64,000 nucleotides of DNA from Anaerolineales bacterium (GTDB taxonomy: Bacteria; Chloroflexota; Anaerolineae; Anaerolineales; Villigracilaceae). The stretch covers positions 1,178,001-1,242,000 of the forward strand of contig CP129481.1 of assembly GCA_030583905.1 (NCBI GenBank). Direction: 5' to 3'. The notes below the pieces were generated by a model, which was not told the DNA's origin, did not search any database, and was given only the letters and a program-made list of their open reading frames with translations. How positions within the stretch are numbered: the first letter of the stretch is position 1; each line of letters starts with the position of its first letter. A program made the position numbers and the translations under genes. Of the stretch, positions 1 to 15,424 are shown piece after piece.

Positions 1-477
1 GATGCCGATCAACCCGCCGCCGATGCTGACGAGCGAGAACAGCGGAGGCGCGTTCCCCTGAATGGACAAGATGATGGGAAGCAGGAAAATCGTCATGCCC
101 GCGATGCCGTGCGTGACCGCGAGGACGAAAACGGGGAACTTGTTCTGCATGGGGATCGAGCGGGTCAACGCCACGGCGAGGAAACCGACGATGGTGAAGA
201 TCAGGTACGAGGTCCGGAACGAGGCGATATATTGCCAGACGATTCCCAGTGAAAGCGCAAGCGGGATGACGGTCGAGACGATGACCACGATGGGCGAATC
301 CAGCACGTCGAATCCGAGGATGAACATCAACAGGACTGCGACGAGTAAAACGCCGAAACCGACAGTGAAAGCGATGATGGGCAGTGTATCGAGATCGTCA
401 ATGCCGACCGCAACCTGATACGAGGTGAGGATTGTTGTGAGGAGCAGGAGGACGCGGTCAAGGGGGGAGAGTTTCAT
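1..477 (-). CDS. Polytopic membrane protein, 3' end outside window
   Basis: An open frame of 159 codons runs from an ATG at 477 to the window edge with no stop, so the C-terminus is missing. The visible part is strongly hydrophobic, with about five likely transmembrane segments and short charged loops such as residues near RSIPMQNK. Its ATG shares one base with the stop codon of the upstream heme O synthase gene (TGATG), so it is almost certainly the next gene of that operon and translationally coupled. I do not recognise the family. A role in heme or respiratory-complex assembly would be inference from position only. Confidence 0.7.
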   Translation of the reverse strand, partial: MKLSPLDRVLLLLTTILTSYQVAVGIDDLDTLPIIAFTVGFGVLLVAVLLMFILGFDVLDSPIVVIVSTVIPLALSLGIVWQYIASFRTSYLIFTIVGFLAVALTRSIPMQNKFPVFVLAVTHGIAGMTIFLLPIILSIQGNAPPLFSLVSIGGGLIGI

Positions 478-1343
478 CACATCACTTCGATCACAACCAG
501 AATCATCGCGGCAAGCATGTAAATGGACGCGTACTTGAACAAACCGAAGTTGACGCGCTCGGACGGATTGAACGTGACCGTTACCGCCAGCATCAGCAAA
601 CCTGCGGAGAGCACGCCGAGCAATCGCAGGAAGCCCCACGCCATGCCGATGCCATAGCCCGCCGCGACCATCGCCGCGGCCGCCAGCACGGACGAGACCG
701 CGATGGTGATGCGGGTGACCGTCAGCCCGTAGGTGGAGGGGAAGGTCGGCACGCAGGCGTCGGCGTAGTCTTTGGCGAATTTCATGCTGAAGGTGAGCGT
801 ATGGGTGGGAATCCAGAACAGGATGCCGAGCGCGAGCGTGACACCGATCCAATCGATCGCGCCGAGACCGAGCGCGCGCCCCGCGAGAATGGGCATCGCG
901 CCCGAGATGCCGCCCCAAACGATGCTCCACGCGGTGCGGCGTTTGAGCCACATGCTGTACACGACCACGTCGAAGAACAGACCTGCGAAGACGATGAGAC
1001 CGTACAACGCGTCCATCGCCACCGCCCAGCCGACGCCGATGACCGAAAGGATCAAACCGACGCGCAGGACTTCGTTTTCCTCCACCAGCCCCTTCGATGT
1101 GGCGCGCTTTTGCGTGCGTCCCATCTTGGCATCAATGTCACGGTCCCACCACATGTTGAGGACGGTACTTCCCGCGATCGCAAGGAAGAGACTACCCGCC
1201 AATGCAAGGATCGTGCCAATATTGAACACAGGACAACGCGCGCTCATATAGCCTGCCAGACCCGTTGCAAGCAGCAAACCCGATTGCGACGGTTTGGTCA
1301 ATGCCCAATAGTGGGCGATTTTCGATTGAGCGGCGTTGGTCAT
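477..1343 (-). CDS. ctaB: Protoheme IX farnesyltransferase (heme O synthase)
   Basis: UbiA-superfamily integral membrane prenyltransferase of 288 aa, the usual length for CtaB/CyoE. It transfers a farnesyl group to protoheme IX to make heme O, the cofactor (or heme A precursor) of heme-copper oxidases. The Mg/polyprenyl-diphosphate motif NMWWDRDIDAKMGRT is intact, and the family-typical second cytoplasmic loop reads YSMWLKRRTAWSIVWGG followed by SGAMP. The start is supported by AGGAG five bases upstream. It follows the SUMF1-type lipoprotein gene after about 77 bases and overlaps the next membrane gene, giving an operon of at least four genes. The presence of heme O synthase argues for oxidase-type respiration. 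Confidence 0.9.
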   Translation of the reverse strand: MTNAAQSKIAHYWALTKPSQSGLLLATGLAGYMSARCPVFNIGTILALAGSLFLAIAGSTVLNMWWDRDIDAKMGRTQKRATSKGLVEENEVLRVGLILSVIGVGWAVAMDALYGLIVFAGLFFDVVVYSMWLKRRTAWSIVWGGISGAMPILAGRALGLGAIDWIGVTLALGILFWIPTHTLTFSMKFAKDYADACVPTFPSTYGLTVTRITIAVSSVLAAAAMVAAGYGIGMAWGFLRLLGVLSAGLLMLAVTVTFNPSERVNFGLFKYASIYMLAAMILVVIEVM

Positions 1344-1420: not shown

Positions 1421-2446
1421 TTACCGCGCACAGCGGAACCCGACCTGCGGGCTGTAATGCTGGGGTCCCGCGCTGTTGAATTTCCACACGCGCAGGTCCA
1501 CTTCGTACGAGTAGAAGCTTCCGCCGCGCATGTGACGGTAGTGCTGTTTGGGATAGTCATCGCCTGTCCACTGCCAGACGTTGCCCGCCATGTCGTACAG
1601 TCCATAAGGCGAAGCGGAATCCAGCGTGGTGTAACTTCCTTCTGGGAGCGTGTATGTGTTTCCGTTGTAAAAACCGACCGGTGTGGTATTGCCCAGTTTG
1701 CCGAACATCTTCACGAACAGGTCGAACGACGAATAATAGTTGGCATTGTTGCGCTCGATGTGCGTGCCCCACGGGAAGGGCAGTCCGTGCCCATCCACCA
1801 GCTCCGTGCCGCGCGCGGCTTTCTCCCATTCGATCTCGCTCGGCAGTCGCCAGCCGTAGAATTCACAGTACGCGTTCGCGCCGAACCACGTCATCATCGT
1901 AACGGGATGGTTGCTGTATTCATGGATCGCGCGGAAGGTCTGACCATCGAACGTGATGCGCACGCCGTCCGCTTCGGTGGGGAAGAAGAGTTTGTCGCCG
2001 GGCTTGATCTCCTCCTCGTGCTTGTACCCATCGTAGGGATCGCCTGGATAAAAACCGTGCGCTCCAAACTCCGCCCAAACCTGCTCGCCAGTCTCAACCT
2101 CCACCTCGCCGACAGTGATCGCGCCTGCCGCGGACGCTTCGTTCAGGAAGCGTGCGTACTGCTCGTTGGTGACAGTTGTGACCATCATCTCGTAATCGTA
2201 ATCCACGTCTGTGATGAGGTCGTGCTGTCCATAGGGAAAACTTCCAGCGGGGATCAATGCCCAGGATTCGGGATCAATTCCCGTGTCAATGTAGGGAGGC
2301 GTGATGGCGGCGACGCTCGGCGCGGAGGCGCAGGATGAAATCAGAATCAATGTCATTGCGAGGGCGATAATCCGAAGCAAACTCCTGTTAGAGGAAGGGG
2401 GCTGCTTCGCAAAAAACGCTCGCAGCGACATGAGTTTGTTTTTCAT
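1421..2446 (-). CDS. SUMF1/formylglycine-enzyme-fold lipoprotein
   Basis: A 341-aa protein with an N-terminal signal ending in the lipobox LISSC (cleavage before Cys39), so the mature protein is probably lipid-anchored outside the cytoplasmic membrane. The rest is a SUMF1/FGE-sulfatase domain, shown by RLPSEIEWEKAARG, YGLYDMAGNVWQWTGDD, HMRGGSFYS and the terminal GFRCAR. The cysteine pair that makes formylglycine in true FGE follows the GGSxY motif; here that segment reads SYEVDLRV without cysteine, so oxidase activity is unlikely and a binding or structural role is more probable. AAGGAGGTGG lies four bases before the ATG, which overlaps the upstream stop (ATGA). Residues about 6-32 are encoded by a genomic palindromic repeat. 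Confidence 0.8.
   Translation of the reverse strand: MKNKLMSLRAFFAKQPPSSNRSLLRIIALAMTLILISSCASAPSVAAITPPYIDTGIDPESWALIPAGSFPYGQHDLITDVDYDYEMMVTTVTNEQYARFLNEASAAGAITVGEVEVETGEQVWAEFGAHGFYPGDPYDGYKHEEEIKPGDKLFFPTEADGVRITFDGQTFRAIHEYSNHPVTMMTWFGANAYCEFYGWRLPSEIEWEKAARGTELVDGHGLPFPWGTHIERNNANYYSSFDLFVKMFGKLGNTTPVGFYNGNTYTLPEGSYTTLDSASPYGLYDMAGNVWQWTGDDYPKQHYRHMRGGSFYSYEVDLRVWKFNSAGPQHYSPQVGFRCAR
2351..2432. repeat. TCATTGCGAG-type palindromic repeat inside a CDS
   Basis: A copy of the element also present at 18117-18206 and 44858-44944. On the minus strand it shares AGGAGxTTGCTTCGG and the exact 15-mer GCCCTCGCAATGACA with the 44858 copy, and the left end has decayed to ATGTCGCTGCGAG. It lies wholly within the 5' coding region of the SUMF1-fold lipoprotein gene and encodes much of its n- and h-region. 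See findings. Confidence 0.8.
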
Positions 2447-3978
2447 TTCTCCACCTCCTTGAGAGTCTCCTCGAGTTCTTTGAGTTTGCGTTTCTGCTCC
2501 TGAATTTCGGTTTCCGCTGACTTCTTGAGTTCCGATTTATATTCCTGTGTCCACCAGCCTTTTGCCTTGAACAGGTCTATCAGACGCCAGACCATGAAAA
2601 TCGCCAGCACGACCAACACTGTCGCAAGACCGATATCGGTCAACAGCATTGTCCAGTTGACGATGTTCTGCTGTTCGGCTTCGGTCGCGAACAGACGCTT
2701 CATCGAGAAGATCGTGACGGAGGCAAAGGCGAGGTTGGACATGATGATGATCGTCCAGCCGAACCATTTGCGGGCTTTACCCTTCAGCCCCGAAAGATCG
2801 GCAAAGTAGAACAGTATAATGGTGGCGATCAGGCTGGCGAGGATGTGCCAGTGTCCCGTCAGGATGATGCGTTCCTCACGATGAGGCCAGACGCGGAAGA
2901 TCTCGGTCAGTTTGACCGCCATGAAGATGCCCACGCCGCTGACGGTGAAATTCATGAATACCATCTGCCAGCCCGGACCGAACTTGATCGGGTCGCGGAG
3001 CAACGCTTTGATCTTCTGCCCGAAGGTCGGCTTTTCGATGCCCGCCGTGCCTTCGCGGATGAGCATCCCCCATGAGTAGATGACGAAGAACAACGCCGCC
3101 AGCATGACGAAGACCGAGCCGACGTAGATGATGGTGTGCGCCGCCTCCACCCATACCACCGAGAGCGCACCTGCTGTGATGATGACTGTTCCCAAGATCA
3201 TCAATGGCATGGCGATGCGGTGCAAGGTGCCTTGGAACTTCAGCCAACGCCCTACGATGAGCGTGATGGCAATGGCGATCAGGGTCAACATGATGTGCAG
3301 GTGACCGATGATGGCTTTTTGCAGATAGGTCTTGAACGGGTTGCGGATCAGGTCTTCCGCGAGGAAGGTCTCGTGACCGTTGCTCCAGTACGAGCCGGAG
3401 ACCGCCCCGAAGGCGGCGGAAAGCAGTGTGGATACTGCCATCACGAAGAAAGCGACGCGCTCAAGGTCGAGTCCGCTTTTGGTGCGGGCGAAGGGCGAGT
3501 CTGTAGGCAGGCGGTATTCCTTCTTCCACGGAGCGAGCGCGACCGCAAGTAGGATGCCCGCGAAAAACACCAGCGACTGTCCGAGCAGGAATAAGCCGTG
3601 AAAGGCGAAATTGCGTCCCCAGTAGGCGAACGCCATGCCAAAGATGACCGAGATCAGATAGCCGACAGTGATCGTGCCATTGATCATCGTCTGCTCGTGG
3701 CGCTTCATTGGGACGAGTTCGGTGATGAAATATACCTCGATGGCGACGATGGTCATGGCGATGGTGTGGTACAGCATGATGATGCGGCCTTCGCGCGCCG
3801 CCGGGACCAGTTCCATTTTCAGCAGGCGCACGACCACATCGCGGATGCCCCATTCCACCATCGGACCGGAAAGCGTGCCGAAGATGGCAGTGATGAGCGA
3901 AACCACCGCGATGGCGACCAGCGTCAGCCCGCGCGTGGAGCGGAAGAGATAATCAAAACGGTCTTTGAGAAACTGCAT
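2443..3978 (-). CDS. 12-TM histidine-bearing membrane protein, possibly heme-copper-oxidase-like
   Basis: A 511-aa integral membrane protein with twelve clear hydrophobic helices and a C-terminal charged coiled-coil tail (about 478-511). Histidines lie in or at helix 2 (H71), helix 6 (H226, H228), helix 8 (H281) and helix 10 (H376, H378). Helices 1-2 and 5-6 are visibly related: FGTLSG and FGAVSG each precede a helix-centred His by exactly 37 residues, and helix 10 (TGHWHIL) resembles helix 6 (IGHLHIM). I chose the ATG at 3978 because GGAGGA ends six bases before it. The frame is open to 4062, but that stretch is heptad-repeat DNA. The heme O synthase in the operon and the 3 x 4-helix layout suggest a divergent relative of heme-copper oxidase or NO reductase subunit I. 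That is inference; canonical helix-7 histidines are not seen. Confidence 0.7.
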   Translation of the reverse strand: MQFLKDRFDYLFRSTRGLTLVAIAVVSLITAIFGTLSGPMVEWGIRDVVVRLLKMELVPAAREGRIIMLYHTIAMTIVAIEVYFITELVPMKRHEQTMINGTITVGYLISVIFGMAFAYWGRNFAFHGLFLLGQSLVFFAGILLAVALAPWKKEYRLPTDSPFARTKSGLDLERVAFFVMAVSTLLSAAFGAVSGSYWSNGHETFLAEDLIRNPFKTYLQKAIIGHLHIMLTLIAIAITLIVGRWLKFQGTLHRIAMPLMILGTVIITAGALSVVWVEAAHTIIYVGSVFVMLAALFFVIYSWGMLIREGTAGIEKPTFGQKIKALLRDPIKFGPGWQMVFMNFTVSGVGIFMAVKLTEIFRVWPHREERIILTGHWHILASLIATIILFYFADLSGLKGKARKWFGWTIIIMSNLAFASVTIFSMKRLFATEAEQQNIVNWTMLLTDIGLATVLVVLAIFMVWRLIDLFKAKGWWTQEYKSELKKSAETEIQEQKRKLKELEETLKEVEK

Positions 3979-4142: not shown

Positions 4143-4186
4143 ATTATCGCATAGGTTATGTAATAAATATTGTGACTTAAGTCACA
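4143..4186 (-). promoter_or_regulatory. CRP/FNR-family operator and -10 box
   Basis: The perfect 16-bp palindrome TGTGACTTAAGTCACA (4171-4186) is the textbook CRP half-site pair TGTGA-N6-TCACA. On the minus strand a -10-like GATAAT lies at 4148-4143. This puts the start near 4136 and the operator centre about 42 bases upstream of it, the class II activator position. The site faces the 2443-3978 gene and its operon. Which CRP/FNR-family protein binds is not known. Coordinates include the -10 box. Confidence 0.65.
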
Positions 4187-12802: not shown

Positions 12803-13858
12803 TTATGGAGTCGGGGTTTCGGTTGGTTCCGGGGTGGGACCTTCCGTGGGCGATCCATCCACCGTAGGCGTCGGCGTGATGATGAGTTCCGGCGTGGCTG
12901 TGGGCGGGAAGCAGATCAACAGTGCTTCTCTATAGTTTGCATCGGCGGCGGCGTCCAGTCCGCCGATGGCGGCGGCATTGTTGTATTGATCCACTGCGCC
13001 GCAGTAATCGCCCCGCAGGTAAAGCTCATCGCCATAGCGCATGAGCGCGAAGTAGTAGCGCTGTGATGCAGTCATGGTGCCGTCCCAAAGGGAGGGCCAG
13101 CCTGCGCCAACCTGTGAAAAGTACACGACGGCTTGTTCCCAGTTCAGCTCCCAGAAGCTTGCGCCGGTGATGTAGGCGCGTGCGCCTTCGCGAAGCCCGA
13201 TGGATGAGTTGTCGAGAGGACCGAAGCGCTCGGCAAGGGTCAGGTAGTAGATCCCGCCTTCGAGATTCCCCTGCTGTGTGATCAGGCTGTATCCGTAATT
13301 GCGGAGGACGAAGTAGTACATACCGTCCACTTTGGCGGTGTTATAGGTTGGGTCAAGTTTGCGGATGGTGTCCAGCGCTTCCAGTGCGCCCGCCCAATCC
13401 TGCGCGCGGATGAGTTCCTGTGCGCGCCCGAAGGCGCTTTCCGCACCGCTGAAATCGGGCGTGGGTGTGATGGTGGCGGTGGGTGCCGGGGTTGGGACGG
13501 AACTCAGGACAAGCACTTCCGTTAATTTATCCCGTGCGCCGGGGTAGGACGGGTCCTTGTCAATGATGAATTCAAGGCGCTGGCGGGCGTTTTCGTAGCG
13601 TCCAAATTCGATGTCCACCAGTGCGAAGGAGAACTGTTCGGTGAGTTGTTCGGCAAGAATGGATCTTTCCGCTGTCCTGCGCGCTCCGATCCCGGAAGAA
13701 TAGCCGCCCAATCCACCGAGTCCAATGAGCAGGAGGAACCCCAGAACGCTGATAAGGATGGGGCGCCAGTGTGGGGTTTTCTTCACTGCCTTGATCGGTT
13801 GGGTATCTTCTTCCTGATAGGGTTGATTGGGTTGTGTATTTCCAAGTTGTTCTGACAT
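12803..13858 (-). CDS. Membrane-anchored TPR-like protein
   Basis: A 351-aa protein with a short cytoplasmic N-terminus, one transmembrane helix (about 33-55, ending GGYSSGIGARR) and an extracytoplasmic helical region. TPR-like pairs are visible, for example ENARQRLEFIIDKDPSYPGA, ALEALDTIRKLDPTYNTA and GAVDQYNNAAAIGGLDAAA. Two Thr/Pro stretches (about 118-132 and the C-terminus) look like wall-spanning linkers. No enzyme motif is present. It is probably an envelope scaffold; its place between murJ and the CopD-like gene suggests, but does not prove, a cell-wall role. TATAAT lies seven bases before the ATG. Confidence 0.6.
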   Translation of the reverse strand: MSEQLGNTQPNQPYQEEDTQPIKAVKKTPHWRPILISVLGFLLLIGLGGLGGYSSGIGARRTAERSILAEQLTEQFSFALVDIEFGRYENARQRLEFIIDKDPSYPGARDKLTEVLVLSSVPTPAPTATITPTPDFSGAESAFGRAQELIRAQDWAGALEALDTIRKLDPTYNTAKVDGMYYFVLRNYGYSLITQQGNLEGGIYYLTLAERFGPLDNSSIGLREGARAYITGASFWELNWEQAVVYFSQVGAGWPSLWDGTMTASQRYYFALMRYGDELYLRGDYCGAVDQYNNAAAIGGLDAAADANYREALLICFPPTATPELIITPTPTVDGSPTEGPTPEPTETPTP

Positions 13859-13865
13859 GAGGATG

Positions 13866-13871
13866 ATTATA
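13866..13871 (-). promoter_or_regulatory. -10 box, leaderless TPR gene
   Basis: A perfect TATAAT on the minus strand, seven bases before the ATG at 13858. No ribosome binding site fits in between. Confidence 0.6.
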
Positions 13872-13918
13872 CATTCCTTTGAAAAATTGCGATTTTTTCT
13901 TAGATTGGTTTTATTCAG

Positions 13919-15424
13919 CTACATTCTGAACAAGAGCTTCACTTCGGACCAGATAATTGCCAGCGCGATGCTGCCGCCAATGACCATGCCGATCAGTGCG
14001 GTGACGATGGCGCCGCCGGGCAGATAGACTGCGATGAGGTAGGCGATTACTCCGCCCACGACCGCTGCCAGCAAGCCTTTGAATACGGCGCTGTTCGTTT
14101 TCAGGGGTTCATGCGTCCGTTTGGAGAGCCAGACGAGCAGGATGATGGCTTCGATCAACAGGGCGATCTCGGCAAACGCGATGATCGGCGCGCCGATATC
14201 GGCAAACAGGAAAACACCGACGATGCTGATCGCCAGAAACATGGCAAGCCGCAGGAGGACGGCATACAGCGGGACCATCGGTTCCTTGCGGGCGTAGAAT
14301 GCGCGGACTGCCACTTCGTGAATGACATAGCCCGTCAACGTGGCAAGGTAGGCGCGCGTGGTCCAAGTGATGAGTACGGAGGTGGCTTCATCGAAGCCGA
14401 AGACGGCGCGCACCAGCGGATGAAGTCCCGCCGACATGACCGCCGCGACGGGCAGGGTAAGTGCGATCAAGACTCGCAGGGCGCGTTCGACCGTAGCGCC
14501 GAACTCCTTCCAGTCACGTTTTGAAGCGAGTTCTGAAAGGGTCGGCAAAAGCGCAGTGGCAATGGCAGTCCCAAGGATGGTTTCAGGGACTTGCATGATC
14601 ATCCAGCCGAAGGTCAGGGACGTGACCGCGCCAACCTGATCCAAGCGTGATGCGAGATTATCGCGCGCGATGAAGATGAGTTGGATGCCTGCCATCGTAA
14701 AGAGGCGCGGAGCCATCAATTTGACCGCTTCGATCAAACCTGTATGGCGGAGATCCAGCGACGGCGTCCAGCGGAATCCGAATTTGAAGAGCATGGGAAC
14801 CTGCACCAGCAAATGCATTGCCGCGCCGATGATCACGCCATAGACCAGACCATAGATCCCAAAATGCGGTACAAGGAAGATCGCGCCGAAGATCTGACCG
14901 ATGTTGTACATGCTCGGCGCAATGGCAGGCATGACGAAATGCTGGTTCGCCTGCAGTGACGCCATCACCAAACCGCTGATGGAAAAGATGAGCGTGCCAA
15001 TTAAATTCAGCCGCATCAACTCTGCCAGCAGGGTGCGCTGTTCCACGCCGAATCCCGGCGCGATGCCGATCTCCGCATCCACGATCTGCTGCGCGAAAAT
15101 GGCAATGATGAGCGCGGCAACACCTGTTGCAATAAACCCAAAATTTGCCACGCGCGAGAACAGATCCCACGCGGCGGCACGGTCTTTGGTCGTGAGATAT
15201 TCCGTCAACAGCGGGATGAATGCCATTGCCAATGCGCCGCCGGAGATCAACGCGAACAACATATCGGGCAGATTGTTTGCGGCGTTGAACGTATCCAGCA
15301 GATGCACTTCGTCCGTGTAAATGCGTGAGACGATGGCGGTGTGCACAAAAGCGAATATTTTATTGATCAGAAAGAAGAACGCAACGATCAGCGAGTTGCG
15401 CGCCAGACGCGAAAGTTTATTCAT
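13919..15424 (-). CDS. murJ: Lipid II flippase MurJ
   Basis: A 501-aa MOP-superfamily membrane protein with about 13-14 transmembrane helices that moves lipid II across the cytoplasmic membrane for peptidoglycan synthesis. The MurJ/MviN N-terminus is clear (NSLIVAFFFLINKIFAFV, FNAANNLPDMLFALISGGAL, AFIPLLTEYL), as is GWMIMQVPETILGTAIATAL in the middle. The length is normal. AGGA lies five bases before the ATG. It is 15 bases downstream of the zinc-ribbon gene, in a minus-strand cluster. Confidence 0.93.
   Translation of the reverse strand: MNKLSRLARNSLIVAFFFLINKIFAFVHTAIVSRIYTDEVHLLDTFNAANNLPDMLFALISGGALAMAFIPLLTEYLTTKDRAAAWDLFSRVANFGFIATGVAALIIAIFAQQIVDAEIGIAPGFGVEQRTLLAELMRLNLIGTLIFSISGLVMASLQANQHFVMPAIAPSMYNIGQIFGAIFLVPHFGIYGLVYGVIIGAAMHLLVQVPMLFKFGFRWTPSLDLRHTGLIEAVKLMAPRLFTMAGIQLIFIARDNLASRLDQVGAVTSLTFGWMIMQVPETILGTAIATALLPTLSELASKRDWKEFGATVERALRVLIALTLPVAAVMSAGLHPLVRAVFGFDEATSVLITWTTRAYLATLTGYVIHEVAVRAFYARKEPMVPLYAVLLRLAMFLAISIVGVFLFADIGAPIIAFAEIALLIEAIILLVWLSKRTHEPLKTNSAVFKGLLAAVVGGVIAYLIAVYLPGGAIVTALIGMVIGGSIALAIIWSEVKLLFRM

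Follow-up and report, generated by a model that had tools for sequence, protein, structure and literature searches.

Few enzymes have been studied as closely as the heme-copper oxidases (HCOs). The window analysed here, the whole stretch of 64,000 nucleotides from an Anaerolineales genome, carries in one operon the gene of a heme O synthase and that of a membrane protein of 511 residues, which a first-pass annotation had proposed to be a divergent HCO relative or a separate heme protein, of a family that it did not recognise. Does this protein belong with the HCOs, which ligands could it offer to hemes and metals, and what might it do?

Results

A twelve-helix protein with seven invariant histidines

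The features of the operon are collected in Table 1. The twelve-helix gene is open on the minus strand only, GGAGG lies 7 bases ahead of its ATG, and its stop codon overlaps the start of the following gene in the sequence ATGA. The protein had no match in Pfam, NCBIfam or the PDB sequences, and a literature search found no description of the family. A scan in which each bacterial and archaeal species was represented by a single genome yielded 298 relatives, the best 80 of which come from Chloroflexota, Neomarinimicrobiota, Bacteroidales, Chlorobiota/Ignavibacteria, Calditrichota, KSB1, Aminicenantes and Spirochaetales bins. In the window's own class the gene is present in 42 of the 199 genomes sampled, and a distant lineage of 35-40% identity is among the 42.

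Table 1. Operon features (window positions) and predicted helices (protein residues)
Feature	Position	Strand	Remarks
Six-helix membrane protein, ~201 aa, HGIAG motif	1..477 (cut by window end)	-	no Pfam family
Heme O synthase CtaB/CyoE	477..1343	-	TIGR01473, 216 bits (cut-off 210.3)
SUMF1/FGE-type lipoprotein (signal ...LISSC)	1421..2446	-	Pfam FGE-sulfatase, E 3e-36
Twelve-helix protein of predicted HCO fold, 511 aa plus stop	2443..3978 (ATG 3978, stop 2443)	-	invariant H71, H127, H226, H228, H281, H376, H378
CRP/FNR-type palindrome TGTGACttaaGTCACA	4171..4186	.	perfect; ~190 bases ahead of the ATG
Helices 1-6 (AlphaFold2)	15-34, 59-88, 93-119, 124-147, 172-200, 218-245
Helices 7-12 (AlphaFold2)	251-272, 280-310, 330-355, 366-395, 400-430, 433-470

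The twelve hydrophobic helices counted in the first-pass annotation reappear as twelve transmembrane helices in the AlphaFold2 model, followed by a C-terminal helix. The motifs it had picked out are also in place: FGTLSG (33-38) and FGAVSG (190-195), each with 37 residues from its glycine to a histidine (G34 to H71, G191 to H228), the GHxH of helices 6 and 10 (GHLH 225-228 with H226/H228, GHWH 375-378 with H376/H378), and the histidine of helix 8, H281, which stands at the helix start. It had overlooked H127, which is as invariant as the other six. All seven are 100% conserved in 111-112 distinct homologues, even in those of only 35% identity, and M230, W377, E208, D329 and E369 are likewise invariant in this set. 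Position 282 is variable (T, K, M, I, N, Y, V or R), and Y285, four residues after H281, is Y in 95 of 112 sequences and N in 16. One copy of the gene (genome G412, L185:7040-7699) is seemingly truncated, with CtaB, NrfH and NrfA coming after it.

The predicted fold is that of the HCOs

Two AlphaFold2 models were obtained, the first with 12 homologues (pLDDT 77.5) and a deeper one with 45 (pLDDT 87.6). For both, all 50 of the 50 matches listed by VIA-align against the PDB were HCO subunit I, NO reductase included, and none was a non-heme transporter. The best match was to cbb3 in each case (first model, 3mk7_D, Z 23.8, 397 residues, 3.7 A; deeper model, 8smr_E, Z 22.8, 405 residues, 4.3 A), and ba3, aa3 and cNOR followed with Z of 19-22 (cNOR 3o0r_B, Z 19.2 and 21.3 in the two models). 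Foldseek placed ba3 first (3s8f_A, E 4e-3, probability 1.0). Thus, with two models from different alignments and HCOs filling the match list, the proposal of a divergent HCO relative was supported at the level of the predicted fold. Since the structural alignments run end-to-end, helix n of the family should match helix n of the HCOs.

Sequence comparison does not make this connection. Aligned with hhalign to HCO profiles (local, global and per-subfamily), the family reached best probabilities of 1-11%, with no reliable residue map, and among the families listed in a profile search COX1 matched none of the 45 members. The controls connected HCO and NnrS at 96.9% and rejected unrelated membrane proteins. 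Judged by these profiles, the protein is too divergent for sequence to prove HCO homology, so its HCO-fold membership is a result of structure prediction and not of sequence; a point against the HCO reading is that AlphaFold2 may lean toward a well-known fold. In the same comparisons the GHxH of helix VI preferred the HxH of HCO helix X, as a consequence of internal symmetry.

The overt internal repeat that had been claimed stands for helices 5-8 against 9-12, which are similar beyond chance (hhalign probability 95.4%, E 2e-8; reversed control 1.3%) in an alignment that pairs H226/H228 with H376/H378. For helices 1-4 against 5-8 the hhalign alignment was collinear and not significant (0.6%). 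The weak pairings in the repeat analysis were H127 with H281 and H71 with H228, and the G34-H71/G191-H228 spacing gives the latter pair as well.

A non-canonical set of putative ligands

In HCOs the low-spin heme is held by the helix II His together with the second histidine of HxH in helix X, the high-spin heme by the first His of this HxH, and CuB or FeB by a helix VI His and the two adjacent His that end helix VII. By the predicted fold, His of helices II, VI and X fall at the places where the HCOs bind their hemes and copper. Those of helices II and X are kept throughout the family: H71, H376 and H378, placed by the model helices, are invariant in the 111-112 sequences. The three-His site for CuB or FeB was not found; there are two His in helix VI, and H281 alone of the helix VII pair. 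H281 lies in AHxxxxVG (AHxIIxVG), with the spacing of the first His in the A-type AHHMFTVG, so the pair, which the first-pass annotation had given as absent, looks halved instead: its second His is indeed lost, at the variable position 282, and its first is kept. The helix VI Tyr of A/B-type O2 reductases (His+4) and the helix VI Glu of cNOR/qNOR (H-x3-E) are both missing, with an invariant M230 at H226+4 and mostly T/A/S at position 232 (H228+4; E in 2 of 112). As the counterpart of the canonical CuB His, the GH motif favours H226, and the residue count to the helix end in HCOs favours H228. Within the profile of canonical HCOs, the His of helix II aligned with the first HxH His, and the registers of both families may therefore differ by two residues.

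From these positions we infer that H71 and H378 would hold a low-spin heme and that H376 would be the proximal ligand of a high-spin heme, with a second metal nearby bound by H281 and either H226 or H228 of helix VI, and not by three His. H127 and the remaining helix VI His would be additional ligands with no canonical HCO counterpart. To our knowledge, the third pore of the HCO fold is empty in known members. Because H127 and H281 look like symmetry mates, the extra His (H127 and one of H226/H228) would fall in this pore, and it is conceivable, as a tentative proposal, that the third pore bears cofactor ligands here: H127, one helix VI His and possibly H71, which by the G34-H71/G191-H228 pairing could face another pore than the HCO helix II His does. 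If so, cofactors would sit at three places in the protein, or else at two heme-metal sites that are nearly identical and correspond to each other through the internal repeat.

A heme O synthase kept beside the gene

The SUMF1-type lipoprotein gene lies directly downstream of the twelve-helix gene in 73 of the 74 relatives with room for it. Following the distribution of the gene together with ctaB, a check proposed at the outset, we found CtaB within at most 3 ORFs in 56 of 64 loci, and in the distant f82 lineage it comes directly after the twelve-helix gene. Of the two full CtaB in the window's genome, one is that of the operon and the other lies beside an A-type COX1 (1.95 Mb). Three genomes (G072, which is 99% complete, G329 and G453) have the twelve-helix gene with an adjacent CtaB, and no COX1 matched in them at E 1e-3. 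CtaB serves HCOs, so in these genomes no heme o user is evident other than the twelve-helix protein, and the keeping of this pair in some genomes without another HCO makes it probably the heme O user. The link to heme, first drawn from the operon, was thereby supported indirectly, and the protein most likely binds heme o, with its operon's CtaB as the supplier.

Neither a CuA nor a cytochrome c subunit was recognised in the operon. The ATG of the six-helix gene, at 477, overlaps the CtaB stop, and members of this family (~205 aa, with a conserved His in HGIAG) lie up- or downstream of the twelve-helix gene in most loci; in many, two divergent copies flank it (e.g. L034:9243-9851 and 13425-14030). 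About ten loci have upstream a NapH-like 4Fe-4S membrane protein (cluster c10, e.g. L034:6520-7359), a possible quinol-linked electron donor.

Neighbours and regulation

NrfH and NrfA serve nitrite/NO reduction. NrfHA lies in or adjoins the cluster in four loci (L064 of KSB1, L066/G136, L185/G412 and L186/G458), and NrfA is present in 19 of the 42 genomes of the class with the twelve-helix gene versus 34 of 157 (Fisher p 0.003, ignoring ancestry), and in 19 of the 30 such genomes of the main clade. A DUF438-hemerythrin gene, named from sequence, adjoins the twelve-helix gene in L112, L113, L116, L117, L121, L123 and L059, a flavodiiron protein lies near it in L113, Rrf2 regulators were seen in L059, L064 and L092, and CRP/FNR regulator genes in 27 loci. 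These neighbours point to NO or nitrite chemistry. Note that most loci have no NO gene beside the twelve-helix gene, and that O2 stress would suit the DUF438, hemerythrin and flavodiiron proteins as well. Cluster c85, considered as Hcp, was rejected and looks like an acyl-CoA dehydrogenase.

The palindrome TGTGACttaaGTCACA has no other exact match within the window. TGACN4GTCA occurs upstream of 12 of 80 relatives versus 3.8 expected for the same loci, with the window's locus counted twice in the 12. An HcpR site has been given as TTGACnnnnGTCAA, and NrfHA, hemerythrins and ferredoxins are in HcpR regulons (Rodionov et al., PMC1274295). A ferredoxin-like protein with two 4Fe-4S clusters, which may be the HcpR-linked ferredoxin FrdX, adjoins the cluster and NrfHA in L064:7068-7919 and L185:5702-6556.

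Next to distant members of the family lies another HCO, with WWGLDMVADGN as its helix VI sequence, in which the usual His-Pro-Glu is missing. This protein (PF00115; L112:11315-12943, L115:8072-9688, L117, L175 and L176) has HH and HxH, misses the CuB His of helix VI and adjoins an NDH-2-like gene and a DUF438 gene. It looks like an unusual NO reductase (NOR); Asp is the mark of gNOR (PMC8756737).

Discussion

The best reading is an unnamed family of predicted HCO fold, whose likely ligands depart from the canonical set and which has a heme O synthase dedicated to it. With subunit I of the cbb3 (CcoN), ba3 and aa3 enzymes it shares the predicted twelve-helix fold (Z 20-24), the His of helices II, VI and X, the helix X HxH and a linked heme O synthase gene. 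Unlike them, it has a single His for the helix VII pair, an extra invariant H127, a second helix VI His and no helix VI Tyr, with no detectable sequence similarity and no CuA/cytochrome c subunit recognised. With cNOR, qNOR, gNOR, eNOR and sNOR it shares the predicted fold (3o0r, Z 19.2/21.3) and the missing active-site Tyr of helix VI, which in NORs is replaced by Glu, Asp, Gln or Asn (PMC8756737); moreover, NO/nitrite genes lie near the twelve-helix gene and a NOR-like HCO adjoins the distant members. However, NORs keep the helix VII His pair, of which the family has one His, and the family carries M230 at H226+4 and T/A/S at H228+4.

Because the three-His metal site was looked for and not found, we would class the protein neither as a terminal oxidase nor as a NOR; it may well work like one of them. 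An HCO-fold family that receives heme o from its own CtaB, with NO binding, reduction or protection as its likeliest job, is the account we hold to be somewhat more probable than all others together. In anaerobic or microaerobic bacteria exposed to nitrite/NO stress, the protein would bind and reduce NO or give protection from it; its electrons would come from the quinone pool or an operon partner. As far as the sequence and its neighbours can tell, NO is favoured over O2 as the substrate.

It is rather unlikely that the protein is instead a non-catalytic heme/metal protein of HCO fold similar to NnrS (PF05940), binding NO or a metal for protection or sensing with no part in respiration. Its metal site is reduced, and NnrS has been described as a hypothetical heme-copper membrane protein of NO regulons (PMC1274295). 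When aligned with HCO profiles by hhalign, Chloroflexota NnrS-type proteins (L148-L167) matched along the greater part of the chain (96.9%, E 1.7e-10), and on this ground NnrS seems to belong to the HCO superfamily. NirV is a SUMF1-domain protein beside nirK, and the SUMF1 lipoprotein of our operon recalls it, with its FGE-sulfatase domain in a nitrogen-oxide setting; unlike NirV, it is an exported lipoprotein tied to the twelve-helix gene and not to nirK. Yet the His motifs differ from those of NnrS, the family has no Pfam match and no profile similarity to NnrS (hhalign 1.5%), it retains in helices II and X the ligands of HCOs that transfer electrons, and a linked heme O synthase would be unusual for NnrS. 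A second family, of a size to suit twelve helices, also occurs near the cluster (~405 aa, motif VRVHFITLG...VHIHANNWGF; L127:1102-2319 and c39 ORFs in L015, L028 and L031); its member at G492:C96 has weak matches to NnrS (E 1.8e-4) and COX1 (3.6e-4), and to NnrS by hhalign (68%).

Improbable too, in our view, is a divergent terminal oxidase, a heme o enzyme of HCO fold with O2 reduction as its job, perhaps to scavenge O2 in anaerobes. The predicted fold and the heme O synthase would suit it, the flavodiiron and hemerythrin neighbours fit O2 as well, and H281 and Y285 have the i,i+4 spacing seen in the His-Tyr cross-link of A-type oxidases; but that Tyr is N in the 16 sequences mentioned above, helix VI has the invariant M230 in place of a Tyr at H+4, the helix VII pair is halved, no CuA or cytochrome c subunit was recognised, and several host genomes are without another HCO, as expected of strict anaerobes. 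A heme-free membrane transporter or scaffold, with the HCO match an AlphaFold artefact and CtaB serving other oxidases, would agree with the absent sequence-level link to HCO, and is very improbable against seven invariant His within helices, the HCO fold in both models from different alignments, and a CtaB retained by the gene in genomes without other HCOs.

The predicted HCO fold thus extends to a family that spans six phyla or more and has no name in Pfam or NCBIfam, which profile-based censuses of respiration and NO reduction would miss. If it turns over NO, anaerobic Chloroflexota and others would have an added source of N2O or sink of NO. A filled third pore, if true, would bear on the origin of the threefold HCO architecture.
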